Positions 11,703 to 56,505 of a DNA stretch of 64,000 nt are shown in pieces (the first letter of the stretch is position 1; each line of letters begins with the position of its first letter). Where the stretch lies: NCBI GenBank assembly GCA_032622095.1, contig CP136061.1, forward strand, positions 5,342,734-5,406,733, in the 5' to 3' direction. This DNA comes from Siphonodentalium dalli. Its lineage: Eukaryota > Mollusca > Scaphopoda > Gadilida > Siphonodentaliidae. The notes below the pieces were generated by a model. The model saw only the letters and a list, made by a program, of their open reading frames with translations, did not search any database and was not told the origin of the DNA. Position numbers and translations under genes: made by a program.

Positions 11703-11903
11703 TATACTTCCATGGTGTAACCAAGGAAGTATATTGTTTTTCTACTGCGGCCGTTTTCTGTTTAATTGGAAATACTTAGAAACTAATGGGAGGAGGACCG
11801 CGAAATCTCTAGCGAATATAGGCATCTAAGGTCTACTAAAAATAATGGTATCCGGATGTTGGTCCAATATCTTTTGACAGAGTTATGGCCCTTTTTCGAT
11901 AAT
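11703..11903 (+). repeat. Satellite A monomer, 5' half, split by H1
   Basis: This is the first 201 bp of a monomer A. It stops inside the T-rich stretch that follows CGATAAT and precedes the TTATTATTATT tract. Its missing 1,531 bp lie at 19872-21402. The halves total 1,732 bp, which is the 1,731-bp monomer plus one T, so H1 inserted here between T residues without loss of host sequence. Confidence 0.93.
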
Positions 11904-11934
11904 TATACTTCCATGGTGTAACCAAGGAAGTATA
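11904..11934 (+). repeat. H1 5'-terminal palindrome
   Basis: The arms TATACTTCCATGG and CCAAGGAAGTATA pair with one mismatch around a 5-nt loop. The same palindrome starts every A, B and C monomer. Its left arm is the reverse complement of the sequence at 19832-19844 near the 3' end. It probably marks the element terminus recognised during rolling-circle transposition, which is an inference. Confidence 0.85.
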
Positions 11935-12110
11935 TTGTTTTTCTACTGAGGTCGTTTTCCGTTTATTTCGAAATACTCAGAAACTGATTGCAGTAGGAAC
12001 GCGAAATCTCTAGCGAATGTAGGCATCGAAGGTTTACTAGATATAATGGTATCCGGATTTCCGCCCAATGTTTCTTGGTGGAGTTATGGCCCTTTTGCGA
12101 TTATTTTTCA

Positions 12111-12113
<3 letters not shown>

Positions 12114-12144
<31 letters not shown>
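12114..12144 (+). repeat. TTA microsatellites inside B and B' monomers
   Basis: A TTA/ATT run lies at monomer offset about 210-240. Equivalent runs occur at 13873-13917, 15634-15668, 15871-15903 and 17617-17649 with differing lengths. In monomer A the tract is only three or four triplets. All nested insertions in this window start within or beside this tract. Confidence 0.9.
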
Positions 12145-12146
<2 letters not shown>

Positions 12147-13869
12147 TTATTATTATACTTGACACTTTTGTAATCACTATTACTCGAAAAGTACAAGAAG
12201 TAGGACACTAAAACTTGGTAGGTAGGTTGGGGTACATGAGTTCTATGCCTATGGCCCATAACGATTTTGTCCGCGCTTTCACCGAGGAGTTATCTCCCTT
12301 TATTTGAAAAAATGTCATTTTATTATCTCGGAAATTATAAGAAGCAGAGCATCGAAAATTAGACCGTATGCACATCTCGATATGCACTACTGCCCACGGG
12401 CATAAAAACTTGTGTCCGCGCTTTCCCTGAAGAGTTACCGCCCATAGTTGGCAAACCTCTATTTTATTGTACTCTGTTGTCCTCCCGTATCATTCCAGAT
12501 AACTGTATTTGTTTTTTGTAGTCGTGTTGACCGTTGTCAGCTTAGTCCGAAGAAGAAAATTTGACAGGGTTGGCCATATAATTTTACACTGGGGTGGGGG
12601 CAAAATTTTCGCAATTTTTTTTTTTTATTGACATTCATCTATTTAAGTATGTAGATTCCATGAACGAAAACAAACCCATACCGGAAAGGATTTTTGTAAT
12701 CCGAGAAGAAATGCAAGAGTTACGGGCCCTCAAAGTTTGCAATTTGGTCCCATGTGCTTGTGCTCACATCTCCTCCGAAGATATCGAACTTAGGATGTCA
12801 TCTGATATCCCAGTGCGTGCGGTCCGAAGAGAGCACGCGATGTGCCAAATTTTGCCAGTGTCGGTTAAGTGTTGTGGATCAGGGGAGGGGCGGTCCGGGG
12901 TACCAATTTTTTATTCTTCTCCGAATCAGATGAAACTTGGAGTGTAACATCTACACCGCCAACCGATCTAGAAACTGAAACAATTTAGAAAATCCATTGA
13001 AAAATGACGGAGTTGCGGTCCTTCAAACAATGCAAATTTGGGCCCATGTGCCTGTGACCTCTTTTCCTCCGAAGATCTCAAACTTAGGATGTCATCTGAT
13101 ATCGCAGTGCGCGCGGTCTGAAGAGAGCACGCGATGTGCCAAATTTTGCAAGTGTCGGTTCAGTGTTGTGGGTCAGGGGAGGGGTGGTCCGAGGTACCAA
13201 AATTTAGTTCGTCTCCGAATCATATGAAACTTGGTATATAACATCTACCTTATACGTTGATCATAAAACTGAAAACAGATCGTAAATCCGTTAAAAAATG
13301 GCGGAGATTTGGGCCCTCAAACTTTGAATGTGGGCCCGTATTCTTTCAAATAAACAAAATGTTATTCGTCTCTGAATGAGACAAAATTTATAAAAAAATA
13401 ATCAATGTAACTAGCTGATCACAATACTCAAAACAATTTTAAAATCCATTGGAAAATAACGGAGTTACGGGCTCTCAAAATTCGCATTTTGGGCCGGGTT
13501 TGACTATTTCCCAATCCCGTCACCCAATTTCGAGGCAGGGGTGGGGTCACTTCCAAAGACTTGAGATCAACCCACACATGTTAAGGGAAAGATATAATCA
13601 TCCTACTTCATATTTTCCGTCCCTTAACTGCGATTTATTGAGCTCATGATTTGGCCTATTATTATACTTCCATGGTGTAACCAAGGAAGTATATTGTTTT
13701 TCTACTGAGGTCGTTTTACGTTTATTTCGAAATAATCAGAAACTGATTGCAGTAGGAACGCGAAATCTCTAGCGAATGTAGGCATCGAAGGTTTACTACA
13801 TATAATGGTATCCGGATTTCCGCCCAATGTTTCTTGGCGGAGTTATGGCCCTTTTGCGATTATTTTTCA

Positions 13870-13908
<39 letters not shown>

Positions 13909-15630
13909 TTATTATTATACTTGACACTTTTGTAATCACTATTACTCGAAAAATACAAGAAGTAGGACACTAAAACTTGGTAAGTAGGTTGGGGTACATG
14001 AGTTCTATGCCTATGGCCCATAACGATTTTGTCCGCGCTTTCACCGAGGAGTTATCTCCCTTTATTTGAAAAAATGTCAGTTTATTATCTCGGAAATTAT
14101 AAGAAGCAGAGCATCGAAAATTAGACCGTATGCACATCTCGATATGCACTACTGCCCACGGGCATAAAAACTTGTGTCCGCGCTTTCCCTGAAGAGTTAC
14201 CGCCCATAGTTGGCAAACCTCTATTTTATTGTACTCTGTTGTCCTCCCGTATCATTCCAGATAACTGTATTTGGTTTTTGTAGTCGTGTTGACCGTTGTC
14301 AGCTTAGTCCGAAGAAGAAAATTTGACAGGGTTGGCCATATATTTTTACACTGGGGTGGGGGCAAAATTTTCGCAATTTTTTTTTTGTATTGACATTCAT
14401 CTATTTAAGTATGTAGATTCCATGAACGAAAACAAACCCATACCGGAAAGGATTTTTGTAATCCGAGAAGAAATGCAAGAGTTACGGGCCCTCAAAGTTT
14501 GCAATTTGGTCCCATGTGCTTGTGCTCACATCTCCTCCGAAGATATCGAACTTAGGATGTCATCTGATATCCCAGTGCGTGCGGTCCGAAGAGAGCACGC
14601 GATGTGCCAAATTTTGCCAGTGTCGGTTAAGTGTTGTGGATCAGGGGAGGGGCGGTCCGGGGTACCAATTTTTTATTCTTCTCCGAATCAGATGAAACTT
14701 GGAATGTAACATCTACACCGCCAACCGATCTAGAAACTGAAACAATTTCGAAAATCCATTGAAAAATGACGGAGTTGCGGTCCTTCAAACAATGCAAATT
14801 TGGGCCCATGTGCCTGTGACCTCATCTCCTCCGAAGATCACAAACTTAGGATGTCATCTGATATCGCAGTGCGCGCGGTCTGAAGAGAGCACTCGATGTG
14901 CCAAATTTCGCAAGTGTCGGTTCAGTGTTGTGGGTCAGGGGAGGGGTGGTCCGAGGTACTAAAATTTAGTTCGTCTCCGAATCATATGAAACTTGGTATA
15001 TAACATCTACCTTATACGTTGATCATAAAACTGAAAACAGATCGTAAATCCGTTAAAAAATGGCGGAGATGTGGGCCCTCAAACTTTGAATGTGGGCCCG
15101 TATTCTTTCTAATAAACAAAATGTTATTCGTCTCTGAATGAGACAAAATTTATAACAAATAATCAATGTAACTAGCTGATCACAATACTCAAAACAATTT
15201 TAAAATCCATTGGAAAATAACGGAGTTACGGGCTCTCAAAATTCGCATTTTGGGCCGGGTTTGACTATTTCCCAATCCCGTCACCCAATTTCGAGGCAGG
15301 GGTGGGGTCACTTCCAAAGACTTGAGATCAACCCACACATGTTAAGGGAAAGATATAATCATCCTACTTCATATTTTCCGTCCCTTAACTGCGATTTATT
15401 GAGCTCATGATTTGGCCTATTATTATACTTCCATGGTGTAACCAAGGAAGTATATTGTTTTTCTACTGAGGTCGTTTTACGTTTATTTCGAAATAATCAG
15501 AAACTGATTGCAGTAGGAACGCGAAATCTCTAGCGAATGTAGGCATCGAAGGTTTACTACATATAATGGTATCCGGATTTCCGCCCAATGTTTCTTGGCG
15601 GAGTTATGGCCCTTTTGCGATTATTTTTCA

Positions 15631-15664
<34 letters not shown>

Positions 15665-15668
<4 letters not shown>

Positions 15669-15868
15669 CTTCCATGGTGTAACCAAGGAAGTATATTGTT
15701 TTTCTACTGCGGCCGTTTTCTGTTTAATTGGAAATACTCAGAAACTAATGGGAGGAGGACCGCGAAATCTCTAGCGAATGTAGGCATCTAAGGTCTACTA
15801 AAAATAATGCTATCCGGATGTTGGTCCAATATATTTTGACAGAGTTATGGCCCTTTTTCGATTATTTT

Positions 15869-15903
<35 letters not shown>

Positions 15904-17614
15904 CTGGACACTTTTGCAACCCTTATTACTCGAAAAGTACCAGGAGTAGCACACTAAAACTTGGTACGTATCTTGGGATCAAAGAGTTGTATGCCATCGT
16001 CGCATAACGAATATTGTCCGCGTTTTCCCCGAGGAGTTATCTCCCTTTATTTGAAAAAATGTCATTTTATTATCTCGGAAATTATAAGAAGCAGAGCATC
16101 GAAAATTAGACCGTATGCACATCTCGATATGCACTACTGCCCACGGGCATAAAAACTTGGGTCCGCCCTTTCCCTGAAGAGTTACCGCCCATAGTTGGCA
16201 AACCTCTATTTTATTGTACTCTGTTGTCCTCCCGTATCATTCCAGATAACTGTATTTGGTTTTTGTAGTCGTGTTGACCGTTGTCAGCTTAGTCCGAGGA
16301 AGAAAATTTGACAGGGTTGGACATATATTTTTACACTGGGGTGGGGGCAATATTTTCGCAATTTTTTTTTATTATTGACATTCATCTATTTAAGTATGTA
16401 GATTCCCTGAACGAAAACAAACCCATACCGGAAAGGATTTTTGTAATCCGAGAAGAAATGCAAGAGTTACGGGCCCTCAAAGTTTGCAAGTGTCGGTCCC
16501 ATGTGCTTGTGACCCTATCTCCTCCGAAGATGTCGAACTTTGGATGTCGTCTGATATCCCAGTGCGTGCGGTCTGAAGAGAGCACGCGATGGGCCAAATT
16601 TTGCCAGTGTCGGTTCAGTGTTGTGGGTCAGGGGAGTGGTGGTCCGGGGTACCAATTTTGTATTCTTCTCCGAATCGGATGAAACTTGGAATATAACATC
16701 CATACCGCCAACCGATCTAGAAACTGAAAGAATTTCGAAAATCCATTGAAAAATGTCAGAGTTGTGGGCCTTCAAACAATGCAAATTTGGCCCCATATGC
16801 TTGTGATCACATCTCCTCCAAAGATGTCAAACTTTGGATGTCAACTGATACGCCAATGCGTGCGGTCTGAAGAGAGCACGCGATGAGCCAAATTTTGCCA
16901 GTGTCGGTTCAGTGTTGTGGGTCAGGGGAGGGGTGGTCCGGGGTACCAAAATTTATTTCGTCTCCGAATCATATGAAACTTGATATATAACATATACCAT
17001 ACACGTTGATCATAAAACTGAAAACAGATTGTAAATCCGTTAAAAAATGGCGGAGATTTGGGCCCTCAAACTTTGAATGTGGGCCCGTATTCTTTCCAAT
17101 AAACAAAATGTTATTCGTCTCTGAATCAGACAAAATTTATAACAAATAATCAATGTAAGTAGCTGATCACAATACTCAAAACAATTTTTAAATCCATTGG
17201 AAAATAACGGAGTTACGGGCTCTCAAAATTCGCATTTTGGGCCGGGTTTGACTATTTCCCAATCCCGTCACCCAATTTCGAGGCAGGGGTGGGGTCACTC
17301 CCAAACACTTGAGATCAACCCACACATGTTAAGGGAAAGATATAATCATCCTAATTCATATTTTCCGTCCCTTAACTGCGATTTATTGAGCTCATGATTT
17401 GCCCTATTATTATACTTCCATGGTGTAACCAAGGAAGTATATTGTTTTTCTACTGCGGCCGTTTTCTGTTTAATTGGAAATACTCAGAAACTAATGGGAG
17501 GAGGACCGCGAAATCTCTAGCGAATGTAGGCATCTAAGGTCTACTAAAAATAATGCTATCCGGATGTTGGTCCAATATATTTTGACAGAGTTATGGCCCT
17601 TTTTCGATTATTTT

Positions 17615-17649
<35 letters not shown>

Positions 17650-17795
17650 CTGGACACTTTTGCAACCCTTATTACTCGAAAAGTACCAGGAGTAGCACAC
17701 TAAAACTTGGTACGTATCTTGGGATCAAAGAGTTGTATGCCATCGTCGCATAACGAATATTGTCCGCGTTTTCCCCGAGGAGTTATCTCCCTTAT
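15665..17795 (+). repeat. Satellite B': chimeric monomer plus broken terminal monomer
   Basis: The full monomer is 15665-17410 (1,746 bp), followed by a 385-bp piece (17411-17795). The first 380-400 bp read like monomer C (GGAGGAGGACCGCG, GTCGCATAACGAATA). From about 16050 the sequence reads like B (TTTATTTGAAAAAATG, AAGAAGCAGAGC). B' is therefore a recombinant. It shares the variant AATGCTATCCGG with the last monomer of H2, which suggests the monomer beside the single-copy domain is an older type. The array ends abruptly at about 17795. Confidence 0.85.
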
Positions 17796-17796
17796 C

Positions 17797-18008
17797 TCGA
17801 TTATTCCGTTTGCGATAACAACGATAAACACATAGAAACATGCAAACATCATCAGTTTCGTAAGATCAATTTGTATATTGTTATAAACCGTAGTATACTG
17901 CTGATAGACATTCAATTCTTTCCGTGAGTATATGTCTGCCGAATTGGAAATGACTCCTTTTATACTTTCGCAAACTAAAACACCACTGATAGTTTCGTAC
18001 TCCGTCAT
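17797..18008 (-). CDS. Small open frame with one predicted membrane segment (unassigned)
   Basis: Reading leftward from an ATG at 18008, about 70 codons are open before the frame runs into satellite sequence; it stays open by chance to 17700. The peptide starts MTEYETISGVLVCESIKG and has one hydrophobic stretch (about residues 52-68, LMMFACFYVFIVVIANG) that could span a membrane. The H2 copy (33262-33495) is similar but has an internal stop. Between the copies most substitutions change the amino acid, so there is no sign of purifying selection. It may be a captured exon fragment or a chance frame. Function unknown. Confidence 0.2.
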
Positions 18009-18328
18009 TTAAGTCTTGTCAAAAAAGCAAACGTGAAACAACCGCTCATTATTCCTACCATAAAGGAATCTACTTATAGAGAACGCTCTTTTCTGTTCGA
18101 TTACGTTCAAACTATTTGTGTGTTGTTGTTAATCACTCATTATATTCTTCGGACCGAACGTTCATTAAGCGCGCTTCATGTTATATATGCGAAAACCGAC
18201 CCACGTGTTTATTGTTTTATATCCGATTCAATAACACATTTTACATTATCTTTAGTTTGGTATTATTCGTATTTGATGATTAAAATACACCAAAACATGT
18301 TAAAAATAAAAAATACAAAAAGATAATT

Positions 18329-18406
18329 TGACGGGATTCGAACTCACGTCGCAATAAAACACAAACTGAAGGTTTGACGCTCTCACCTCTGGGCTACGCA
18401 CTGCGC
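18329..18406 (-). pseudogene. tRNA-like sequence, copy 1
   Basis: On the minus strand it reads a box-A-like TAGCCCAGAGG, an anticodon-arm-like CAAA/TTTG stem and a box-B-like AGTTCGAATCC, followed by T-runs that could terminate RNA polymerase III. No acceptor stem can be drawn from the flanks and the T-stem has mismatches, so it is a tRNA-derived relic or SINE head, not a working tRNA. The anticodon cannot be assigned safely. Confidence 0.6.
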
Positions 18407-18600
18407 TGTTAATTTATAAGAAAATATATTAGTATTAAATATATAGGCATATAACTGTGTATATTTAAACTTTATATTCAAATTGATTGAAATCGAATAT
18501 AAAAAGCATCTTTACATTATCTTTAGTTTGGTATTATTCGTATTTGATGATTAAAATACACCAAAACATGTTAAAAAATAAAAAATAAAAAAAGATAATT

Positions 18601-18678
18601 TGACGGGATTCGAACTCACGTCGCAATAAAACACAAACTGAGGGTTTGACGCTCTCACCACTGGTCTACGGACTGCGC
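18601..18678 (-). pseudogene. tRNA-like sequence, copy 2
   Basis: Second copy within the 271-bp duplication. It has the same box B and anticodon arm and differs at several bases in the D arm (GGTCTACGGACTGCG on the + strand). It again lacks an acceptor stem and is followed on the minus strand by T-runs. Confidence 0.6.
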
Positions 18679-19548
18679 TGTTAATTTATAAGAAAATATA
18701 TTAGTATTAAATATATAGGCATATAACTGTGTATATTTAAACTGTATATCCAAACTGATTGAAATGCGTGACTATATATATATACCCCTTTCCGCTATAC
18801 GGGGAACAGGAAAATGCACCTATTCTTCCCACCAAATCCAAAAGGGCTAATTAAAGAGCAAGGTAATGTAGCAGGTACATTTGGATATTCTATTCACGCC
18901 CCCCCCCCAAATCTTGACCGCTATACTTCAAATTCAAACATCGAGATAATTTTTTTTGACGAGTACATCTGATAGCTAGTGTTCACGCGCATCTAGAGCG
19001 CAATTTTCTAATTTTCAGATGGAACGGTTTACTCGTGACAACGCTATATATCATAAATATGTATACTTCTGTAGTCTATCACTAGCCGATTTTTAGCCCC
19101 AAATCCAAACGGGCCGATGTAGGAGCGAGTTTAATGCGGTGGTACATAAGCCGGTATACTGTAGGTATGACTCTAAAATTTGACCTCTCTAATATAAACG
19201 CAACCTGCTCAAGGGAGTGTTTGTGTCGGGTGGGTTCAGATTTGGAAAATTCCACCGAAGATCAAATGGGCAAAATTACTCCGAAAATCATATATTGAGA
19301 TAAAAACTTTTCGATGAGTGGATGTGATAAGTAGTATATATACGCAAGATTAGTACACTTTTTAATAATTTATATTGAACGGTTTAACCCTGGTAGCGTA
19401 TAACGTTGTGACGGGTGATATATATTACTCAAATTCAAACCCTCTCTTCATGACGCAAATTCAAACGGACTTAGCAAGAAGCAAGGCAAATGCATGAATA
19501 TGCTCACCGATATACTATATAGGTATGTCCGCTCTACTGTAAAAGTAA

Positions 19549-19805
19549 CCTATTGTCACGATTTGACCTGTCCAAAACACTCCCCGGACAAAAGTTTTCC
19601 TAGGTATAAAATTTCGTCGAAATCCGATCGTTTTACTCGATTTGACCTTGAACTTACCATTTCGAATGTCAATGTCAGGTCGGGGTCACGACTTGACCCG
19701 CCCAAAAGACTCCCCGGACAAAAGTACCCCTAGGTATCAAATTTCGTGGAAATCCGCATGTTTTACCCGATTTGACCTTCGATTGACCATTTTGAAGGTC
19801 AGGTC
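19549..19805 (-). repeat. Inverted fragment related to the Helitron internal repeats
   Basis: Two tandem copies, 130 bp apart, contain TCCCCGGACAAAAG (19581 and 19711), TAGGTAT and AAATTTCGT motifs. They are the reverse complement of the tandem repeats inside the Helitron at 34313-34764. Neither Helitron terminus is present, so this is a fragment in the opposite orientation. It lies in the part of the H1 3' domain that differs from H2. Confidence 0.7.
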
Positions 19806-19831
19806 GGGACGGGATGGGATGGGATGGAATA

Positions 19832-19871
19832 CCATGGAAGTATATCTGATTCCATGGAATCTGACCTCTAG
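19832..19871 (+). terminator. H1 3' terminus: subterminal inverted repeat, hairpin and CTAG
   Basis: CCATGGAAGTATA (19832-19844) is the reverse complement of the element's 5' tip. CCATGGAA (19832-19839) pairs with TTCCATGG (19850-19857) across a 10-nt loop. Ten nucleotides later comes CTAG (19868-19871), followed by the host T-tract. In Helitrons a 3' hairpin just before CTRR acts as the transposition terminator. H2 has the same terminus. Confidence 0.87.
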
Positions 19872-21402
19872 TTTTTCATTGTTATTATTATTCTTATACT
19901 GGACACTTTTGCAACCCTTATTACTCGAAAAGTACCAGGAGTAGCATATTAAAACTTGGCACGTATCTTGGGGTCAAAGAGTTGTATGCCATCGTCGCAT
20001 AAAGAATATTGTCCGCGTTTTCCCCGAGGAGTTATCTCCCTTTATCTGAAAAAATGTCATTTTATTATCTCGGAAATAATAAGGAGCAGAGCATCGAAAA
20101 TTGGACCGTATGCACACCTCGATATGCCCTACTGCCCACGGGCATCAAAACTTGTGTCCGCGCTTTCCCTGAGGAGTTACCGCCCATAGTTGGCAAACCT
20201 CTATTTGATTGTACTCTGTTGTCCTCTTGTATCATTCCAGATAACTGCATGTGGTTTTCATAGTCGTGTTGACAGTTGTCAGTTTAGTCAGAGAAGGAAA
20301 ATTTGACAGGGTCGGACATATATTTTGACACTGGGGTGGGGGGCAACATTTTCGCAAAATAAAATTTTGATTGACATTCATCTATTTAAGTTTATGTATT
20401 TCCCGAACGAAAACAAACCCATACCGGAAAGGATTTTTGAAATCCGAGAAGAAATGCAAGAGTTACGGGCCCTCAAAGTTTGCAATTTGGGCCCATGTGC
20501 TTGTGTACACATCTCCTCCGAAGATATCGAACATAGGATGACATCTGATACGCCAACGTGTGCGGACGGAAGAGGGCACGCGGTGGGCCAAATTTTGCCA
20601 GTGTCTGTTCATTATTGTGGGTCTGGGGAGGGGTGGTCCGTGGTACCAATTTTTAATTCTTCTCCGAATCAGATGAAACTTGGAATATAACATCTGCAAC
20701 ATGAGCCGATCTAGAAATTGAAAGAATTTCGAAAATCCATCTAAAACTGACGGAATTGCGGGCCCTCAAACTTTGCGATTTTGGACCCATGTGCTTGTGT
20801 ACACATCTCCTCCGAAGATATCGAACATAGGATGTCATCTGATACGAAAATACGTACGGACTGAAGAGGGCACGCGGTGGGTGTAATTTTGCCAGTGTCG
20901 GTTTAGTATTGTGGGTCAGGGGAGGGGTAGTCCGCGGTACCATTTTTTTATTCTTCTCCGAATCAGATGAAACTTGGAATGTAACATCTACCATATACGT
21001 TGATCACGATGCTGAAACAGATCGTAAATCCGTGTGAAAATGGCGGAGATTTTGGCCATCCAATTTTGAATTTGGGCCCATATGCTTTCCAATAACCAAA
21101 GTGTTATTCGGGTCCGAATCAGATGAAACTTGTGTTATGCAATCTATGTCAGCGGCAGATAGCAAAACTGGAAACAATTTTTAAATCCGTTGGAAACTAA
21201 CGGAGTTACGGGCCCTCAAACTTCGCATTTTGTGCCAGGGTTGATGTTTTCCCAATCCCGTCACCCAATTTCGAGGCAGGGGTGGGGTCACGTCCAAACA
21301 CTTGAGATCAACCTACACATGTTAGGACAACATATACTCACCATACTTCATATTTTCCGTCCCTAAACTGTGATTCTTTCCACTCATGATTTTCCCTATT
21401 AT
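19872..21402 (+). repeat. Satellite A monomer, 3' part, split by H1
   Basis: It resumes monomer A at the T-tract where 11703-11903 stopped and runs to the next palindrome. It carries the AGATAGC variant (21161) that also occurs at the same offset in the monomer at 1316. Confidence 0.93.
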
Positions 21403-21613
21403 TATACTTCCATGGTGTAACCAAGGAAGTATATTGTTTTTCTACTGCGGCCGTTTTCTGTTTAATTGGAAATACTTAGAAACTAATGGGAGGAGGACCG
21501 CGAAATCTCTAGCGAATATAGGCATCTAAGGTCTACTAAAAATAATGGTATCCGGATGTTGGTCCAATATCTTTTGACAGAGTTATGGCCCTTTTTCGAT
21601 AATTTTTCATTGT
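21403..21613 (+). repeat. Satellite A monomer, 5' half, split by H2
   Basis: First 211 bp of a monomer A, ending TTTTCATTGT just before the H2 palindrome. The rest is at 35504-37024 (1,521 bp). The total is 1,732 bp, again the monomer length plus one T. Confidence 0.93.
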
Positions 21614-21644
21614 TATACTTCCATGGTGTAACCAAGGAAGTATA
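21614..21644 (+). repeat. H2 5'-terminal palindrome
   Basis: Same sequence and pairing as at H1 11904-11934. It directly follows host TTTTCATTGT, so the boundary with the split monomer A is sharp. Confidence 0.85.
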
Positions 21645-24600: not shown

Positions 24601-27600
24601 GTCCGTGGTACCAATTTTTAGTTCTTCTCCGAATCAGATGAAACTTGGAATATAACATCTGCAACATCAGTCGATCTCGAAATTGAAAGAATTTCGAAAA
24701 TCCATCGAAAACTGACATAATTGCGGGCCCTCAAACTTTGCAATTTTGGACCCATGTGCTTGATAACACATTTCCTCCGAAGATATCGAACATAGGATGT
24801 CATCTGATACGACAATACGTACGGATTGAAGAGGGCACGCGGTGGGCCAAATTTTGCCAGTGTCGGTTCAGTATTGTGGGTCTGGGGAGGGGTGGTCCAT
24901 GGTACCAATTTTTAATTCTTTTTCGAATCAGATGAAACTTGGAATATAACATCTGCAACCTCAGCCGATCTAGAAACTGAAAGAATTTCTAAAATCCATC
25001 GAAAACTGAAAGAATTGCGGGCCCTCAAACTTTGCAATTTTGGGCCCATGGATGTGCTTGATAACACATCTTTTCCGAAGATATCGAACCTAGGATGTAA
25101 TCTGCTACTATAATCCGTACGGACTGAAGAGGGGACACGGTGGGTGTAATATTTCCAGTGTCGGTTCAGTATTGTGGGTCAGGGGAGGGGTAGTCCGTGG
25201 TACCATTTTTGTATTCATCTCCGAATCAGATGAAACTTGGAATGTAACATCTACCATATACGTTGATCACGAAGCTGAAAACAGATCGTAAATCCGTGTA
25301 AAAATGGCGGAGATTTTGGCAATTCAATTTTGAATTTGGGCCCATATGCTTTCCAATAACCAAAGTGTTATTCGGGTCCGAATCAGATGAAATTTATGTT
25401 GTGCAATCTAGGTCAGCGGCAGATCGCAAAACTGAAAACAATTTTTAAATCCGTTGGAAACTAACGGAGTTACGGGCCCTCAAACTTCGCATTTTGTGCC
25501 AGGGTTGATGTTTTCCCAATCCCGTCACCCAATTTCGAGGTAGGGGTGGGGTCACGTCCAAACACTTGAGATCAACATACACATGTTAGGACAACATATA
25601 CTCACCATACTTATATTTTCCGTCCCGAAACTGCGATTCTTTCCACTCATGATTTTCCCTATTATTATACTTCCATGGTGTAACCAAGGAAGTATATTGT
25701 TTTTCTACTGCGGCCGTTTTCTGTTTAATTGGAAATACTCAGAAACTAATGGGAGGAGGACCGCGAAATCTCTAGCGAATGAAGGCATCTAAGGTATACT
25801 AAAAATAATGGTATCCGGATGTTGGTCCAATATATTTTGACAGAGTTATGGCCCTTTTTCGATTATTTTTCATTATTATTATTATTATACTGGACACTTT
25901 TGCAACCCTTATTACTCGAAAAGTACCAGGAGTAGCACACTAAAACTTGGTACGTATCTTGGGATCAAAGAGTTGTATGCCATCGTCGCATAACGAATAT
26001 TGTCCGCGTTTTCCCCGAGGAGTTATCTCCCTTTATCTAAAAATATGTCATTTTATTATCTCGGAAATTATAAGGAGCAGAGCATCGAAAATTGGACTGT
26101 ATGCACACCTCGATATGCCCTACTGCCCACGGGCATCAGAACTTGTGTCCGCGCTTTCCCTGAGGAGTTACCGCCCATAGTTGGCAAACCTCTATTTGAT
26201 TGTACTCTGTTGTCCTCTTGTATCATTCCAGATAACTGCATGTGGTTTTCATAGTCGTGTTGACCGTTGTCAGTTTAGTCAGAGAAGAAAAATTTGACAG
26301 GGTCGGACATATATTTTGACACTGGGGTGGGGGGCAAAATTTTTGCAAAATAAAATTTTGTTTGACATTCATCTATTTAAGTTTATGTATTTCTCGAACG
26401 ATAACAAACCCATACCGGAAAGGATTTTTGAAATCCGAGAAGAAATGCAAGAGTTACGGGCCCTCAAAGTTTGCAATTTGGGCCGATGTGCTTGTGACCA
26501 CATCTCCTCCGAAGGTATCGAACATAGGATATCATCTGATACGGCAACGTGTGCGGACGGAAGAGAGCACGCGATGGGCCAAATTTTGCCAGTGTCTGTT
26601 CATTATTGTGGGTCTGGGGAGGGGTGGTCCGTGGTACCAATTTTTAGTTCTTCTCCGAATCAGATGAAACTTGGAATATAACATCTGCAACATCAGTCGA
26701 TCTCGAAATTGAAAGAATTTCGAAAATCCATCGAAAACTGACATAATTGCGGGCCCTCAAACTTTGCAATTTTGGACCCATGTGCTTGATAACACATTTC
26801 CTCCGAAGATATCGAACATAGGATGTCATCTGATACGACAATACGTACGGATTGAAGAGGGCACGCGGTGGGCCAAATTTTGCCAGTGTCGGTTCAGTAT
26901 TGTGGGTCTGGGGAGGGGTGGTCCATGGTACCAATTTTTAATTCTTTTTCGAATCAGATGAAACTTGGAATATAACATCTGCAACCTCAGCCGATCTAGA
27001 AACTGAAAGAATTTCTAAAATCCATCGAAAACTGAAAGAATTGCGGGCCCTCAAACTTTGCAATTTTGGGCCCATGGATGTGCTTGATAACACATCTTTT
27101 CCGAAGATATCGAACCTAGGATGTAATCTGCTACTATAATCCGTACGGACTGAAGAGGGCACACGGTGGGTGTAATATTTCCAGTGTCGGTTCAGTATTG
27201 TGGGTCAGGGGAGGGGTAGTCCGTGGTACCATTTTTGTATTCATCTCCGAATCAGATGAAACTTGGAATGTAACATCTACCATATACGTTGATCACGAAG
27301 CTGAAAACAGATCGTAAATCCGTGTAAAAATGGCGGAGATTTTGGCAATTCAATTTTGAATTTGGGCCCATATGCTTTCCAATAACCAAAGTGTTATTCG
27401 GGTCCGAATCAGATGAAATTTATGTTGTGCAATCTAGGTCAGCGGCAGATCGCAAAACTGAAAACAATTTTTAAATCCGTTGGAAACTAACGGAGTTACG
27501 GGCCCTCAAACTTCGCATTTTGTGCCAGGGTTGATGTTTTCCCAATCCCGTCACCCAATTTCGAGGTAGGGGTGGGGTCACGTCCAAACACTTGAGATCA

Positions 27601-30600
27601 ACATACACATGTTAGGACAACATATACTCACCATACTTATATTTTCCGTCCCGAAACTGCGATTCTTTCCACTCATGATTTTCCCTATTATTATACTTCC
27701 ATGGTGTAACCAAGGAAGTATATTGTTTTTCTACTGCGGCCGTTTTCTGTTTAATTGGAAATACTCAGAAACTAATGGGAGGAGGACCGCGAAATCTCTA
27801 GCGAATGAAGGCATCTAAGGTATACTAAAAATAATGGTATCCGGATGTTGGTCCAATATATTTTGACAGAGTTATGGCCCTTTTTCGATTATTTTTCATT
27901 ATTATTATTATTATACTGGACACTTTTGCAACCCTTATTACTCGAAAAGTACCAGGAGTAGCACACTAAAACTTGGTACGTATCTTGGGATCAAAGAGTT
28001 GTATGCCATCGTCGCATAACGAATATTGTCCGCGTTTTCCCCGAGGAGTTATCTCCCTTTATCTAAAAATATGTCATTTTATTATCTCGGAAATTATAAG
28101 GAGCAGAGCATCGAAAATTGGACTGTATGCACACCTCGATATGCCCTACTGCCCACGGGCATCAGAACTTGTGTCCGCGCTTTCCCTGAGGAGTTACCGC
28201 CCATAGTTGGCAAACCTCTATTTGATTGTACTCTGTTGTCCTCTTGTATCATTCCAGATAACTGCATGTGGTTTTCATAGTCGTGTTGACCGTTGTCAGT
28301 TTAGTCAGAGAAGAAAAATTTGACAGGGTCGGACATATATTTTGACACTGGGGTGGGGGGCAAAATTTTTGCAAAATAAAATTTTGTTTGACATTCATCT
28401 ATTTAAGTTTATGTATTTCTCGAACGATAACAAACCCATACCGGAAAGGATTTTTGAAATCCGAGAAGAAATGCAAGAGTTACGGGCCCTCAAAGTTTGC
28501 AATTTGGGCCGATGTGCTTGTGACCACATCTCCTCCGAAGGTATCGAACATAGGATATCATCTGATACGGCAACGTGTGCGGACGGAAGAGAGCACGCGA
28601 TGGGCCAAATTTTGCCAGTGTCTGTTCATTATTGTGGGTCTGGGGAGGGGTGGTCCGTGGTACCAATTTTTAGTTCTTCTCCGAATCAGATGAAACTTGG
28701 AATATAACATCTGCAACATCAGTCGATCTCGAAATTGAAAGAATTTCGAAAATCCATCGAAAACTGACATAATTGCGGGCCCTCAAACTTTGCAATTTTG
28801 GACCCATGTGCTTGATAACACATTTCCTCCGAAGATATCGAACATAGGATGTCATCTGATACGACAATACGTACGGATTGAAGAGGGCACGCGGTGGGCC
28901 AAATTTTGCCAGTGTCGGTTCAGTATTGTGGGTCTGGGGAGGGGTGGTCCATGGTACCAATTTTTAATTCTTTTTCGAATCAGATGAAACTTGGAATATA
29001 ACATCTGCAACCTCAGCCGATCTAGAAACTGAAAGAATTTCTAAAATCCATCGAAAACTGAAAGAATTGCGGGCCCTCAAACTTTGCAATTTTGGGCCCA
29101 TGGATGTGCTTGATAACACATCTTTTCCGAAGATATCGAACCTAGGATGTAATCTGCTACTATAATCCGTACGGACTGAAGAGGGCACACGGTGGGTGTA
29201 ATATTTCCAGTGTCGGTTCAGTATTGTGGGTCAGGGGAGGGGTAGTCCGTGGTACCATTTTTGTATTCATCTCCGAATCAGATGAAACTTGGAATGTAAC
29301 ATCTACCATATACGTTGATCACGAAGCTGAAAACAGATCGTAAATCCGTGTAAAAATGGCGGAGATTTTGGCAATTCAATTTTGAATTTGGGCCCATATG
29401 CTTTCCAATAACCAAAGTGTTATTCGGGTCCGAATCAGATGAAATTTATGTTGTGCAATCTAGGTCAGCGGCAGATCGCAAAACTGAAAACAATTTTTAA
29501 ATCCGTTGGAAACTAACGGAGTTACGGGCCCTCAAACTTCGCATTTTGTGCCAGGGTTGATGTTTTCCCAATCCCGTCACCCAATTTCGAGGTAGGGGTG
29601 GGGTCACGTCCAAACACTTGAGATCAACATACACATGTTAGGACAACATATACTCACCATACTTATATTTTCCGTCCCGAAACTGCGATTCTTTCCACTC
29701 ATGATTTTCCCTATTATTATACTTCCATGGTGTAACCAAGGAAGTATATTGTTTTTCTACTGCGGCCGTTTTCTGTTTAATTGGAAATACTCAGAAACTA
29801 ATGGGAGGAGGACCGCGAAATCTCTAGCGAATGAAGGCATCTAAGGTATACTAAAAATAATGGTATCCGGATGTTGGTCCAATATATTTTGACAGAGTTA
29901 TGGCCCTTTTTCGATTATTTTTCATTATTATTATTATTATACTGGACACTTTTGCAACCCTTATTACTCGAAAAGTACCAGGAGTAGCACACTAAAACTT
30001 GGTACGTATCTTGGGATCAAAGAGTTGTATGCCATCGTCGCATAACGAATATTGTCCGCGTTTTCCCCGAGGAGTTATCTCCCTTTATCTAAAAATATGT
30101 CATTTTATTATCTCGGAAATTATAAGGAGCAGAGCATCGAAAATTGGACTGTATGCACACCTCGATATGCCCTACTGCCCACGGGCATCAGAACTTGTGT
30201 CCGCGCTTTCCCTGAGGAGTTACCGCCCATAGTTGGCAAACCTCTATTTGATTGTACTCTGTTGTCCTCTTGTATCATTCCAGATAACTGCATGTGGTTT
30301 TCATAGTCGTGTTGACCGTTGTCAGTTTAGTCAGAGAAGAAAAATTTGACAGGGTCGGACATATATTTTGACACTGGGGTGGGGGGCAAAATTTTTGCAA
30401 AATAAAATTTTGTTTGACATTCATCTATTTAAGTTTATGTATTTCTCGAACGATAACAAACCCATACCGGAAAGGATTTTTGAAATCCGAGAAGAAATGC
30501 AAGAGTTACGGGCCCTCAAAGTTTGCAATTTGGGCCGATGTGCTTGTGACCACATCTCCTCCGAAGGTATCGAACATAGGATATCATCTGATACGGCAAC

Positions 30601-32594
30601 GTGTGCGGACGGAAGAGAGCACGCGATGGGCCAAATTTTGCCAGTGTCTGTTCATTATTGTGGGTCTGGGGAGGGGTGGTCCGTGGTACCAATTTTTAGT
30701 TCTTCTCCGAATCAGATGAAACTTGGAATATAACATCTGCAACATCAGTCGATCTCGAAATTGAAAGAATTTCGAAAATCCATCGAAAACTGACATAATT
30801 GCGGGCCCTCAAACTTTGCAATTTTGGACCCATGTGCTTGATAACACATTTCCTCCGAAGATATCGAACATAGGATGTCATCTGATACGACAATACGTAC
30901 GGATTGAAGAGGGCACGCGGTGGGCCAAATTTTGCCAGTGTCGGTTCAGTATTGTGGGTCTGGGGAGGGGTGGTCCATGGTACCAATTTTTAATTCTTTT
31001 TCGAATCAGATGAAACTTGGAATATAACATCTGCAACCTCAGCCGATCTAGAAACTGAAAGAATTTCTAAAATCCATCGAAAACTGAAAGAATTGCGGGC
31101 CCTCAAACTTTGCAATTTTGGGCCCATGGATGTGCTTGATAACACATCTTTTCCGAAGATATCGAACCTAGGATGTAATCTGCTACTATAATCCGTACGG
31201 ACTGAAGAGGGCACACGGTGGGTGTAATATTTCCAGTGTCGGTTCAGTATTGTGGGTCAGGGGAGGGGTAGTCCGTGGTACCATTTTTGTATTCATCTCC
31301 GAATCAGATGAAACTTGGAATGTAACATCTACCATATACGTTGATCCCGAAGCTGAAAACAGATCGTAAATCCGTGTAAAAATGGCGGAGATTTTGGCAA
31401 TTCAATTTTGAATTTGGGCCCATATGCTTTCCAATAACCAAAGTGTTATTCGGGTCCGAATCAGATGAAATTTATGTTGTGCAATCTAAGTCAGCGGCAG
31501 ATCGCAAAACTGAAAACAATTTTTAAATCCGTTGGAAACTAACGGAGTTACGGGCCCTCAAACTTCGCATTTTGTGCCAGGGTTGATGTTTTCGCAATCC
31601 CGTCACCCAATTTCGAGGTAGGGGTGGGGTCACGTCCAAACACTTGAGATCAACATACACATGTTAGGACAACATATACTCACCATACTTATATTTTCCG
31701 TCCCGAAACTGCGATTCTTTCCACTCATGATTTTCCCTATTATTATACTTCCATGGTGTAACCAAGGAAGTATATTGTTTTTCTACTGCGGCCGTTTTCT
31801 GTTTAATTGGAAATACTCAGAAACTAATAGGAGGAGGACCGCGAAATCTCTAGCGAATGTAGGCATCTAAGGTCTACTAAAAATAATGCTATCCGGATGT
31901 TGGTCCAATATATTTTGACAGAGTTATGGCCCTTTTTCGATTATTTTTCATTATTATTATTATTATACTGGACACTTTTGCAACCCTTATTACTCGAAAA
32001 GTACCAGGAGTAGCACACTAAAACTTGGTACGTATCTTGGGATCAAAGAGTTGTATGCCATCGTCGCATAACGAATATTGTCCGCGTTTTCCCCGAGGAG
32101 TTATCTCCTTTTATCTAAAAATATGTCATTTTATTATCTCGGAAATTATAAGGAGCAGAGCATCGAAAATTGGACTGTATGCACACCTCGATATGCCCTA
32201 CTGCCCACGGGCATCAGAACTTGTGTCCGCGCTTTCCCTGAGGAGTTACCGCCCATAGTTGGCAAACCTCTATTTGATTGTACTCTGTTGTCCTCTTGTA
32301 TCATTCCAGATAACTGCATGTGGTTTTCATAGTCGTGTTGACCGTTGTCAGTTTAGTCAGAGAAGGATAATTTGACAGGGTCGGACAAATATTTTGACAC
32401 TGGGGTGGGGGGCAAAATTTTTGCAAAATAATATTTTGTTTGACATTCATCTATTTAAGTTTATGTATTTCCCGAACGAAAACAAACTCATACCGGAAAG
32501 GATTTTTGAAATCCGAGAAGAAATGCAAGAGTTACGGGTCCTCAAAGTTTGCAATTTGGGCCCATGTGCTTGATAACACATCTCCTCCGAAGAT
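21614..32594 (+). repeat. Satellite array C (2,026 bp)
   Basis: Five full monomers start at 21614, 23640, 25666, 27692 and 29718, each 2,026 bp, followed by an 851-bp partial copy from 31744. The first five are nearly identical; one substitution is visible near 25133. The partial copy has more private changes, including AATGCTATCCGG, and ends within a subrepeat at about 32594. C is 295 bp longer than A and has three GGGCCCTCAAA subrepeats (22406, 22699, 22993) where A has two, so the length difference is one whole subrepeat. Confidence 0.94.
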
Positions 32595-32640
32595 TCAGAT
32601 TATGCTACACGCGAAACGGAGATGACTTTTGGGAAATCCA

Positions 32641-32705
32641 GAGTCCAAAACGGATCCAAATCGACCTGTCCCAGAAAAGTCGTTCATTTTGTTTTCACTT
32701 TTTGA
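32641..32705 (+). other. Post-satellite block shared by H2 and H4
   Basis: It begins GAGTCCAAAACG and reaches GTTTTCACTTTTT 50 bp later. H4 has the same two motifs 49 bp apart at 59770-59832. In both elements it lies shortly downstream of the broken last monomer. The elements otherwise share little single-copy sequence. Role unknown. Confidence 0.6.
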
Positions 32706-33261
32706 AAAAGGCTCCAATATTTCAACCAAAACTTTTGGACTTAGAACATTATTTTTTTCTCAGTCAAGTGAAAAGAGCTCTTCAAAATAATCCGCTTATA
32801 TATATAATATATATTATCTATATATACGCCAAAAATTTGTCACTCCCCTCCCTCCGGCTACCCCATTCCCCGTGGGATGGAACCTACCTCCGATTCGAAT
32901 ACACCCGTCTTGCCGCGGCCCAGTCTCAATCCTCTACCAGAGAACTGATAGAACGCCCGTCGAATTCCAACAATCATTTCCAGAGTGGTATATTGGTACG
33001 AGTTCATATCGGAGCCGTTATAAAGCAAATAACTTGGATTTTAATATAAACCCACCTATTCGTAAATTGTGTAGCCCATGGTGTGTGGTAAATTATCATT
33101 TTATCGTGTATAGTGTGTCATGAGCTATCTGCGTGCGTGCATTCCACTTTTGTATTTTCTTTCGCATCTTCAACGCATTGCATATCATATACAACGAAAC
33201 AAAATACAAGCATTACATTAATTTGATCAAACAAACCTTCGTTATGCGGTGTATATTTCTA

Positions 33262-33495
33262 CTAACGTAATGACGACGTATAGCCAATTATTCCATTTGC
33301 GATAACAACGATAAACACATAGAAACATGCAAACATCATCATTTTCGTAAGAACAATTTGTATATTGTTATAAACCGTAGTATACTGCTGATAGACATTT
33401 AATTCTTTCCGTTAGTATATGTCTGCTGAATTGGAAATGACTCCTTTTATACTTTCGCAAAATAAAACACCACTGATAGTTTCGTTCACCGTCAT
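33262..33495 (-). pseudogene. H2 counterpart of the small membrane-segment frame
   Basis: It runs leftward from an ATG at 33495 and matches the H1 frame 17797-18008 over about 70 codons, then ends IIGYTSSLR and a stop. An internal TAA occurs about one third of the way in, so the frame is broken here. This copy shows where the frame ends when no satellite is joined to it. Substitutions against H1 are mostly replacing. Family unknown. Confidence 0.25.
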
Positions 33496-33859
33496 TTAAG
33501 TCTTGTCAAAAAGCAAACGTGAAACAACCGCTCATTATTCCTACCATAAAGGAATCTACTTATAGAGAACGCTCTTTTCTGTTCGATTACGTTCAAACTC
33601 TTTGTGTGTTGTTGTTAATCACTCATTATATTCTTCGGACCGAACGTTCATTAAGCGCGCTTCATGTTATATATGCGAAAACCGACCCACGTGTTTATTG
33701 TTTTATATCCGATTCAATAACACATCGACGTTTATATTCTAGTTATTTATCGAATATAAAAAGCATCTTTACATTATCTTTAGTTTGGTATTATTCGTAT
33801 TTGATGATTAAAATACACCAAAGCATGTTAAAAAAAAAAAAGAAAAAAAAAAGATAATT

Positions 33860-33937
33860 TGACGGGATTCGAACTCACGTCGCAATAAAACACAAACTAA
33901 AGGTTTGACGCTCTCACCACTCGGCTACGCACTGCTC
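33860..33937 (-). pseudogene. tRNA-like sequence, copy 3
   Basis: The H2 copy of the tRNA-derived segment. Its box A (TAGCCGAGTGG) is the best preserved of the three and resembles the class II (Ser/Leu) type. Box B is AGTTCGAATCC. Long T-runs follow on the minus strand. No acceptor stem can be formed. Confidence 0.62.
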
Positions 33938-34312
33938 TGTTAATTTATAAGAAAATATATTGGTATTAAATATATAGGCATATAACTGTGTATATTTAAA
34001 CTTTATATCCAAACTGATTGAAATGAGTGACTATATATACCCCTTTCCGCTATACGGGGAACGGGAAAATGCACCTATTCTTCCCACCGAATCCAAACGG
34101 GCTAATTAAAGAGCAAGGTAATGCCGTAGCAGGTACATTTGAATATTCTATTCAAGCCCCCGCCCCCAAATCTTGACCGCTATACTTTAAAAGTAACCTA
34201 CCCAACGGAGAATGCAAGATGGTGTGGGTTGAGACTTTTGGTAAATTCCACCGAAAATCTAAAGTGCCATTTTCGAATTTTCAGATGGATCGGTTTACTC
34301 GTGACAACGCTA

Positions 34313-34764
34313 TCTACTACATATTTTGGGACTTCTGTCTGTTTGTCTGTTAGGTATGGCCGGGAAAAAAGCCGGACGGATTTCGACGAAATTTGATATC
34401 TAGGGATACTTTTGTCCGGGGAGTGTTTTTGACCCCGAACTGGTCATGACTTTAAAAATGGTCAATTCAATGTCAAATCGTGTAAAACGGATGGATTTCC
34501 ACGAAATTTGATACCTGACGGTACGTTTGTCCGGGGAGTGATTTGGACCGGTAAAACTGTGTCCCCGACCTGACATTGACCTTTAAAATGGTCAATTCAA
34601 GGTCAAATCGCGCCTTTCGACGGGATTTTGATGAAATTTATACCTAGGGGTAATTTTGTCGTGGGAATGTTTTACACGGGTCAAATCGAGACCCCGACCT
34701 GACCTTGACCTTCAAAATTGTCAATAGGGAAAACAGGACGGACGAAGTCTGGTCACCCTGCTAG
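34313..34764 (+). mobile_element. Canonical non-autonomous Helitron, 452 bp
   Basis: It begins TCTACTAC and ends CTGCTAG, sits between A (34312) and T (34765), and has no target duplication: the classical Helitron signature. H1 preserves the empty site (CGCTA joined to TATATC at 19046/19047). A small hairpin, GAC-GAA-GTC, lies 11 nt before CTAG. Internally there are three tandem copies of a 115-130-bp repeat, marked by TTTGTCC (GGGGAGT) near 34412, 34527 and, diverged, 34656. It has no coding capacity. It differs from H1 and H2 by its 5' TC end and A/T target, so two rolling-circle lineages meet here. Confidence 0.85.
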
Positions 34765-35463
34765 TATAATATAAATATTTATGCTTAAGTAGTCTATCAC
34801 TAACCTAATTGTAGCCCCAAATCCAAACGTGCTAATAAAGATCTAGTTTAATGCAGGAGCATGTACGTCGGTATACTGTAGTTACGCCTCCAAGATGTAT
34901 GCTCAGCGGAGAGCTTGCGTCGGGTGGGTTCAGACTTGGCAAATTCCACCGCAAACAAATGTGGAAAATTACTTAAAAAATAAAACTTTGAGACAAAAAT
35001 TTGTTGACGTGGTCAGAATATCCAGGTGCAACTTTCGAACGATTGTATAAGTTTTAGAGTGGACCGTTTAATCCTGGTAGCGCGTAACATTGTTAACGGG
35101 TGAAATATATTACTCAAATTAATATGATTTGCACCCTTTTGATATATATACATGCCGATTACTCTATAATCAGACACACCAAATTTCGTGACCGTTGAAC
35201 AGGATTTGGGCATCAAGGGGAGCGGTTAAAATGTATCCCTACTGAATACAAATGAACTAATTGCCTGGGTGAATGGTGACTCAGTTGGTCAGGACCATGA
35301 TGCATTAGACAGTCATTAATCATCATGACATAAACCTTTGGAGTATATTAGTATTTAGAAATGTCAATGCAAGTCCACCATCGGATCATTAAGCACCAAT
35401 ATGCATTCGAATGAAGAGGAATACACATATACGCATGACACTCACATGGGATGGGATGGGATA

Positions 35464-35503
35464 CCATGGAAGTATATCTGATTCCATGGAATCTGACCTC
35501 TAG
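35464..35503 (+). terminator. H2 3' terminus: subterminal inverted repeat, hairpin and CTAG
   Basis: CCATGGAA (35464-35471) pairs with TTCCATGG (35482-35489); CTAG is 35500-35503, then host TTATTATTATTC. It is identical in layout to the H1 terminus and is preceded by the same GGGATGGGATGGGAT run. Confidence 0.87.
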
Positions 35504-37024
35504 TTATTATTATTCTTATACTGGACACTTTTGCAACCCTTATTACTCGAAAAGTACCAGGAGTAGCATATTAAAACTTGGCACGTATCTTGGGGTCAAA
35601 GAGTTGTATGCCATCGTCGCATAAAGAATATTGTCCGCGTTTTCCCCGAGGAGTTATCTCCCTTTATCTGAAAAAATGTCATTTTATTATCTCGGAAATA
35701 ATAAGGAGCAGAGCATCGAAAATTGGACCGTATGCACACCTCGATATGCCCTACTGCCCACGGGCATCAAAACTTGTGTCCGCGCTTTCCCTGAGGAGTT
35801 ACCGCCCATAGTTGGCAAACCTCTATTTGATTGTACTCTGTTGTCCTCTTGTATCATTCCAGATAACTGCATGTGGTTGTCATAGTCGTGTTGACAGTTG
35901 TCAGTTTAGTCAGAGAAGGAAAATTTGACAGGGTCGGACATATATTTTGACACTGGGGTGGGGGGCAACATTTTCGCAAAATAAAATTTTGATTGACATT
36001 CATCTATTTAAGTTTATGTATTTCCCGAACGAAAACAAACCCATACCGGAAAGGATTTTTGAAATCCGAGAAGAAATGCAAGAGTTACGGGCCCTCAAAG
36101 TTTGCAATTTGGGCCCATGTGCTTGTGTACACATCTCCTCCGAAGATATCGAACATAGGATGACATCTGATACGCCAACGTGTGCGGACGGAAGAGGGCA
36201 CGCGGTGGGCCAAATTTTGCCAGTGTCTGTTCATTATTGTGGGTCTGGGGAGGGGTGGTCCGTGGTACCAATTTTTAATTCTTCTCCGAATCAGATGAAA
36301 CTTGGAATATAACATCTGCAACATGAGCCGATCTAGAAATTGAAAGAATTTCGAAAATCCATCTAAAACTGACGGAATTGCGGGCCCTCAAACTTTGCGA
36401 TTTTGGACCCATGTGCTTGTGTACACATCTCCTCCGAAGATATCGAACATAGGATGTCATCTGATACGAAAATACGTACGGACTGAAGAGGGCACGCGGT
36501 GGGTGTAATTTTGCCAGTGTCGGTTTAGTATTGTGGGTCAGGGGAGGGGTAGTCCGCGGTACCATTTTTTTATTCTTCTCCGAATCAGATGAAACTTGGA
36601 ATGTAACATCTACCATATACGTTGATCACGATGCTGAAACAGATCGTAAATCCGTGTGAAAATGGCGGAGATTTTGGCCATCCAATTTTGAATTTGGGCC
36701 CATATGCTTTCCAATAACCAAAGTGTTATTCGGGTCCGAATCAGATGAAACTTGTGTTATGCAATCTATGTCAGCGGCAGATCGCAAAACTGGAAACAAT
36801 TTTTAAATCCGTTGGAAACTAACGGAGTTACGGGCCCTCAAACTTCGCATTTTGTGCCAGGGTTGATGTTTTCCCAATCCCGTCACCCAATTTCGAGGCA
36901 GGGGTGGGGTCACGTCCAAACACTTGAGATCAACCTACACATGTTAGGACAACATATACTCACCATACTTCATATTTTCCGTCCCTAAACTGTGATTCTT
37001 TCCACTCATGATTTTCCCTATTAT
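35504..37024 (+). repeat. Satellite A monomer, 3' part, split by H2
   Basis: It resumes monomer A in the TTATTATTATTC tract directly after the H2 CTAG and runs to the palindrome at 37025. It completes the half at 21403-21613. Confidence 0.93.
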
Positions 37025-56047: not shown

Positions 56048-56261
56048 TATACTTCCATGGTGTAACCAAGGAAGTATATTGTTTTTCTACTGCGGCCGTT
56101 TTCTGTTTAATTGGAAATACTTAGAAACTAATGGGAGGAGGACCGCGAAATCTCTAGCGAATATAGGCATCTAAGGTCTACTAAAAATAATGGTATCCGG
56201 ATGTTGGTCCAATATCTTTTGACAGAGTTATGGCCCTTTTTCGATAATTTTTCATTGTTAT
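56048..56261 (+). repeat. Satellite A monomer, 5' end only, cut by H3
   Basis: First 214 bp of a monomer A, ending CATTGTTAT immediately before a new palindrome. The remainder is not in the window and is expected to the right of it, after the H3 3' end. Confidence 0.9.
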
Positions 56262-56475
56262 TATACTTCCATGGTGTAACCAAGGAAGTATATTGTTTTT
56301 CTACTGCGGCCGTTTTCTGTTTAATTGGAAATACTCAGAAACTAATGGGAGGAGGACCGCGAAATCTCTAGCGAATGAAGGCATCTAATGTCTACTAAAA
56401 ATAATGGTATCCGGATGTTGGTCCAATATCTTTTAACAGAGTTATGGCCCTTTTTCGATTATTTTTCATTATTAT
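56262..56475 (+). mobile_element. H3: 5' end of a Helentron-like element, cut by H4
   Basis: It starts with the TATACTTCCATGG palindrome (56262-56292) and continues as a C-like monomer head (GCGAATGAAGGCATC). After 214 bp, at TTTTCATTATTAT, it is interrupted by H4. The monomer resumes at 63508. Its 3' terminus is beyond the window. Confidence 0.8.
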
Positions 56476-56505
56476 TATACTTCCATATTTTAATATGGAA
56501 GTATA
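56476..56505 (+). repeat. H4 5'-terminal palindrome
   Basis: A 30-nt palindrome with perfect 13-bp arms and a 4-nt centre (TTTA). Also present at 57716-57745 and 58954-58983, where D monomers start. It shares TATACTTCCAT with the H1/H2 palindrome and differs in the inner half. Confidence 0.88.

Follow-up and report, generated by a model that had tools for sequence, protein, structure and literature searches.

A probable nest of non-autonomous Helentron-type elements in satellite DNA of Siphonodentalium dalli

We analyzed a 64-kb stretch of the genome of the scaphopod mollusc Siphonodentalium dalli (64,000 nucleotides; assembly GCA_032622095.1, contig CP136061.1, positions 5,342,734 to 5,406,733 of the forward strand), hereafter called the window; all counts and coordinates refer to this one locus. 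The window carries a satellite, A, with 1,731-bp monomers, which is interrupted by two complete units, H1 and H2, and a third time by a 5′ end module, H3, inside which lies C, a complete unit that belongs to a diverged family. Probably, the whole represents non-autonomous Helentron-type elements (HINEs), one nested within another, in which arrays of 5′ parts without a 3′ end are followed by a tail that holds one single 3′ end. The parts of the satellite and of the elements are all given on the + strand, and every end found in the window is on that strand too.

Satellite A, whose monomers each open with a Helentron-type 5′ end, is divided into three parts. The left part (1–11903) has monomer starts at 1316, 3048, 4779, 6510, 8241 and 9972 and closes with a partial monomer (11703–11903); the middle part (19872–21613) holds the remainder of this interrupted monomer and then 211 bp of the next; and the last 214 bp of the right part (35504–56261) form a partial monomer (56048–56261). 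The monomer at 4779–6509 served as the reference for all comparisons with A. Seventeen monomers of A are intact (14 of 1,731 bp, one of 1,732 bp and two of 1,722 bp), and their identity to the reference ranges from 99.48 to 100%.

H1 (11904–19871; 7,968 bp) is located at A position 201 and H2 (21614–35503; 13,890 bp) at A position 211. A previous sequence-only reading of this DNA had proposed that both blocks interrupt single monomers, and its coordinates proved exact: the flanks of H1 (11703–11903, 201 bp, and 19872–21402, 1,531 bp) and those of H2 (21403–21613, 211 bp, and 35504–37024, 1,521 bp) each add up to 1,732 bp, which is the monomer plus one T. When rejoined, each flank pair was 99.88% identical to the reference monomer, differing by one substitution and by one inserted T, which the alignment placed at position 200 for H1 and at position 210 for H2. 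The matching termini claimed for the two blocks were also found, since the first 45 bp were identical in 32 of 32 5′ ends of the type shared by A and by the arrays of H1 and H2, and H1 and H2 were 98.3% identical over their last 58 bp. Exact restoration of the monomer combined with matching termini is not a product of chance. With their Helentron-type ends and exact empty sites, H1 and H2 are complete insertion units, much as the earlier proposal of complete transposition units had it. The simpler arrangement of two adjoining satellites without transposition was rejected on the basis of the exact empty sites. Long, near-identical arrays are hard to assemble, and the array lengths may be wrong in the assembly. 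That the junctions themselves are assembly errors in a long satellite is nevertheless extremely improbable, because the three complete units stop at family-specific ends and because rejoining the flanks of H1 and of H2 reproduces the monomer to one base.

H1 and H2 are themselves made largely of tandem arrays that begin with the element's own 5′ end, as had been predicted. In H2, array B (21614–32594) holds five monomers of 2,026 bp each, followed by ~850 bp of a sixth. The prediction of one satellite per element held in that both units contain arrays, but H1 turned out to have two of them: D1 (11904–15664), in which two monomers (1,759 and 1,761 bp) precede a 241-bp partial copy that stops in an (ATT)n microsatellite, and D2 (15665–17797), in which one monomer of 1,746 bp is followed by an incomplete one and whose 5′ end directly follows the D1 microsatellite. 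The two arrays are thus joined at D1 position 241, inside the microsatellite. The last monomer stops at A position 376 in H1, at A position 854 in H2 and at C position 632 in C. It is followed in H1 by a tail (17798–19871) with a 3′ subterminal inverted repeat (subTIR) at 19831–19844, a palindrome at 19848–19861 and a CTAG end at 19871, and in H2 by a tail (32595–35503) with the corresponding features at 35463–35476, 35480–35493 and 35503. From 17800 onward the H1 tail was 90.9% identical to the H2 tail over 739 aligned columns, the shared part of the latter starting at 33287. Altogether, there are five 5′ ends in H1, six in H2 and three in C, and one 3′ end in each; the 3′ end shared by H1 and H2 was matched only twice in the window, at 19871 and 35503, and never inside a monomer.

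The third interruption of A, at 56262, was not noted in the sequence-only reading, nor was unit C. The H3 module (56262–56475) begins at A position 214, its 3′ end lies beyond the window, and 207 of its 214 aligned columns are identical to A and 210 to B. At H3 position 214 it gives way to C (56476–63507; 7,032 bp), which consists of an array (56476–59585) of two monomers (1,240 and 1,238 bp) and a ~632-bp partial one, all beginning with the 5′ end of C, and of a tail (59586–63507) with a 3′ subTIR at 63464–63475, a palindrome at 63477–63496 and a CTAG end at 63507. After C, the rest of an H3-type monomer (63508–64000) continues past the window end; it resumes near A position 211 and is 89% identical to A positions 210–703, indicating that C is nested in H3 and H3 in A.

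By the criteria available from parts of two published descriptions (PMC4067079, PMC7492417), the ends of H1 and H2 carry HINE features. Both units start with TATACTTCCATGGTGTAACCAAGGAAGTATA and finish in ...ACCATGGAAGTATATCTGATTCCATGGAATCTGACCTCTAG; the 5′ sequence folds into a hairpin (z −4.87; 0 of 200 shuffled sequences as stable). A 14-bp palindrome, GATTCCATGGAATC, is found 10 bp from the 3′ end in both, and the 5′ and 3′ subTIRs match over 14 bp in each. The 5′ hairpin of C (z −7.84; 0 of 200 shuffles as stable) and its 12-bp subTIR differ in sequence from their H1 and H2 counterparts; C also has an 8-bp palindrome stem 11 bp from its 3′ end, and this stem forms in a 3′ fold with z −3.10, the folded stretch stopping 2 bases before the end. 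For both H2 and C, none of 400 shuffles reached a 12-bp inverted repeat. Across families the subTIRs match over only 10–11 bp, and the 3′ repeat of each family fits its own 5′ end best. A T precedes all 35 of the 5′ ends in the window and follows the three 3′ ends, so that the three complete units have a T on both sides. Published Helentrons have boundary Ts of their own in variable number (PMC4067079, in the part available), and the extra T at H1 and H2 is either the element's own T or a 1-bp duplication.

Canonical Helitrons (Helitron1) begin with 5′ TC, finish with 3′ CTRR and insert between A and T, according to the available part of a study of such elements (PMC5148889). The CTAG ends found here fit CTRR, and a palindrome does lie 10–11 bp from the end. 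Against such an assignment, the 5′ end is TATAC rather than TC, the insertions are between T and T rather than A and T, and inverted repeats connect the two ends, making it very unlikely that these elements are canonical Helitrons.

The 5′ ends also reveal a shared landing spot. Among the 35 (32 of the A, B and D type and three of the C type), 30 follow a monomer body, and the five non-tandem ones occur at monomer position 201 (H1), 241 (D2 within H1), 211 (H2), 214 (H3) and 214 (C). All five are at or beside an ATT-rich microsatellite, 201–241 bp into a monomer, where ATT tracts are found near positions 196–250. A has 182 TT dinucleotides, 7 of them at 199–214, and all three insertions into A are in this group (p ~6e-5, with the interval chosen post hoc). 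Since the most AT-rich 30-bp windows of A begin at 190–200, a general taste for AT-rich DNA may be enough to explain this landing spot.

Satellite A had been taken for another satellite, different from those of the inserted elements. This did not hold: A shares the same first 45 bp and is 83.6% identical to D1, 87.2% to D2 and 93.0% to B (positions 1–1410), D1 and D2 being 91.8% identical to each other. With an identity of 84–93% between A and the H1 and H2 repeats, and with the same 45-bp start, these are related elements nested in one another. Comparison of the A monomer with itself uncovered diverged repeats at lags of 293, 450, 156 and 144 bp, and a profile made from such segments recognized seven strong units of ~130–157 bp in A, covering ~983 of its 1,731 bp. 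The seeds of this profile were taken from these monomers, the independent support coming from the self-comparison; by itself, a regular-expression anchor performed weakly, with 7 matches in A against 1.5 expected in shuffles and up to 6 in one of 200. The core repeats were present in A, B, D1 and D2, and C gave weak profile matches (best E 0.0011). The long monomer of 1.7–2.0 kb is therefore a HINE 5′ part joined to at least seven diverged core repeats of ~130–157 bp. At their ends, the monomer bodies are weakly similar between A and C (103 of 196 aligned columns) and between B and C (63% over 112 columns); with similarity this weak, we make no claim that the tandem junction predates the families.

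Compared with A, the three D1 5′ parts had no mismatch in the first 45 bp and 28, 29 and 29 mismatches at positions 46–200, a skew with p ~1e-4 at an even rate, in which the D1 copies are not independent. This suggests that the 5′ ends were either kept or recently spread. Several observations weigh against the nested-HINE interpretation. A second invariant 45-bp run is shared by A, B, D1 and D2 at A position 770. When the last 59 bases are folded, the minimum-energy structure of H1 (z −0.92; 39 of 200 shuffles as stable) and that of H2 (z −1.37; 20 of 200) lack the predicted 3′ hairpin, the palindrome being paired with the subTIR instead. No transposase was found among the nine open reading frames checked by Pfam (none matched at E 0.01; 9 of the 38 frames in the window, many of the 38 being copies), and the longest open frame has 179 aa. 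Finally, the arrays resemble one another in a mosaic fashion: at positions 1–560 D2 is A-like and beyond them D1-like, and the H3 flank is 97–98% identical to B at 1–200, 88.0% at 235–560 and 96.5% at 560–705. Exchange between arrays therefore also occurs, and it could have made the H1 join.

Such a mosaic fits the idea that recombination at the ATT microsatellite, or slippage during its replication, produced the H1 composite as well as the switch from one array type to another at H3. Consistent with this, the end of the A monomer (...CTATTAT|TATAC) has a short ATTAT run in common with the microsatellite, and ATTATTAT occurs in A at 213 and 1727 only. This mechanism, however, leaves the exact 3′ ends and the restored empty sites of H1 and H2 unexplained, and the D1–D2 join falls on the first base of a 5′ end, just as the four other insertion junctions do; we regard it as the less likely account, though a serious alternative.

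Under the nested-HINE interpretation, a Helentron transposase acting in trans would copy a unit by rolling circle and insert it between Ts. The arrays would serve as landing pads for their own kind because each monomer carries an ATT tract, and with the landing pad inside the monomer such elements would nest at one place. After a nested insertion, the resulting unit would possess several usable 5′ ends but a single 3′ end, and copying from the outer 5′ end to the first 3′ end, that of the nested element, could then yield a composite; the layout of H1 is as would be expected from this. Directly repeated 5′ parts would in turn allow the intervening unit to amplify into monomers of 1.2–2.0 kb, either by rolling circle on a template without a 3′ end or by unequal exchange.

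That the arrays grew only by chromosomal unequal crossing-over, with rolling-circle transposition moving the units and building none of the arrays, is a real possibility, though we lean against it. Satellite A does show the local sharing of variants that exchange within an array produces: two monomers three apart (37025–38746 and 42209–43930) have an identical 9-bp deletion, and 1414C>T is found in 6 of the 17 intact monomers, all within the right part. We take both as signs of local exchange in the A array. That the boundary of the monomer is the 5′ terminus in all five arrays (A, B, D1, D2 and C) is left unexplained by unequal crossing-over alone, although it would follow if the exchange took place between 5′ parts in direct repeat. 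More tentatively, the nested HINEs may form a self-seeding cycle, in which each monomer provides a usable 5′ origin together with a landing microsatellite and in which landings supply the 3′ end, so that any upstream monomer could start transposition. If this were true, transposition would carry off part of an array, mobile units could be drawn from the satellite again and again, and the satellite's movement and the making of new monomers would both result from nested insertion.

The tails contain further sequences. A repeat of ~272–285 bp (18211–18493, 18482–18765 and 33731–34024) includes a tRNA-like stretch on the minus strand with GTTCGAATCCCGTC, which we presume to resemble a B box; ARAGORN detected no tRNA there or elsewhere in the window, and Rfam at gathering scores had no matches in the window. 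Repeats of ~130 bp (19555–19813 and 34373–34725) are present in both tails in opposite orientation and are 76–80% identical. In H2, 692 bp (32595–33286) separate the last partial monomer from the shared tail and can be aligned to the C tail (59770–59876) over 110 columns at 70.9%. The C tail also holds a 179-bp imperfect palindrome (62795–62973; 76.5%) resembling a small inverted-repeat element; a G-rich and C-rich stretch (61130–61640) with inverted ends, GGTATACCA...TGGTATAC, recognized by eye; and a stretch (60682–60930) that opens with ATCGCTTCTCGGCCTTTTGGC and finishes A-rich, and is perhaps a short interspersed element. We take ATCGCTTCTCGGCCTTTTGGC to be the start of U2 snRNA, although an Rfam search over 60500–61100 gave no match at E 0.1. 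The end patterns of the elements had no matches in viral and genome contig collections, where eukaryotic repeats are not expected.

The comparisons that follow rest on the available parts of the papers cited. The closest counterparts are the Cg_HINE elements of Crassostrea gigas (PMC7492417), which likewise have a left 5′ subTIR with a complementary inverted repeat and a microsatellite, a right 3′ subTIR with a palindrome, and TT insertion; some of them also contain two different arrays in one element, and insertions into repetitive regions occur. Their central tandem repeats (138–181 bp, from a search for monomers of 100–500 bp alone) are close in size to the core repeats found here (~130–157 bp). 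In Cg_HINE, however, the central repeats alone are tandem (up to 29.3 monomers), with a single left and a single right flank around them, whereas in the S. dalli elements the unit measures 1.2–2.0 kb because the left flank lies inside every monomer. The HINE and DINE-1 elements of mite and Drosophila (PMC4067079) are similar in their subTIRs of 12–15 bp, in a palindrome 8–35 bp from the 3′ end, in microsatellites or tandem repeats in some copies, and in TT or T-rich insertion; kilobase monomers each with a 5′ end are not described in the part of that text available.

In plants, Helitron arrays combine multiple 5′ ends with only one 3′ end (Xiong et al. 2016, via PMC12628747) and have been modeled as rolling-circle products of a template that lost its 3′ terminator (PMC12628747, PMC8268682). 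Here too, several copies of the 5′ end without a 3′ end precede one 3′ end, but in contrast to the plant centromeric Helitrons (PMC12628747) the elements have Helentron-type ends, internal core repeats and nesting at a microsatellite. FoHeli of Fusarium oxysporum acquires multiple 5′ termini and one 3′ terminus by self-insertion, with the nick at the leftmost 5′ end and the stop at the first 3′ end (PMC5148889), a composite scheme that H1 fits; in FoHeli, however, the duplicated 5′ part is typically <200 bp, and a satellite is not described in the part of that paper available.

The sequence-only reading had regarded monomers of 1.7–2.0 kb as unusual. Their size is not, because C. gigas has Helitron-related satellites with kilobase monomers (CgiSat04, CgiSat07 and CgiSat14; 2,077, 2,091 and 1,144 bp; Table 1 of PMC8268682), to which the present ones are alike in length and in their similarity to Helitrons. 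What would still set them apart is the 5′ terminus inside the monomer, since a later oyster paper equates Helitron-related monomers with the central repeats (PMC11136912). Kilobase Helitron-related satellites, self-insertion composites and arrays in which many 5′ ends go with one 3′ end are thus already published. A 5′ end and a landing pad in each kilobase monomer, with nesting at that pad, were not met in our literature search, and we do not claim that they are absent from print. If copies elsewhere agree, the Helentron origin of kilobase satellites becomes testable base by base. The window clearly illustrates how such elements can accumulate and give rise to satellite DNA, through steps that are for the most part already known. 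Three published ideas come together at this one locus: HINEs that contain core repeats, the combination of many 5′ ends with one 3′ end in an array, and the formation of composites by self-insertion.

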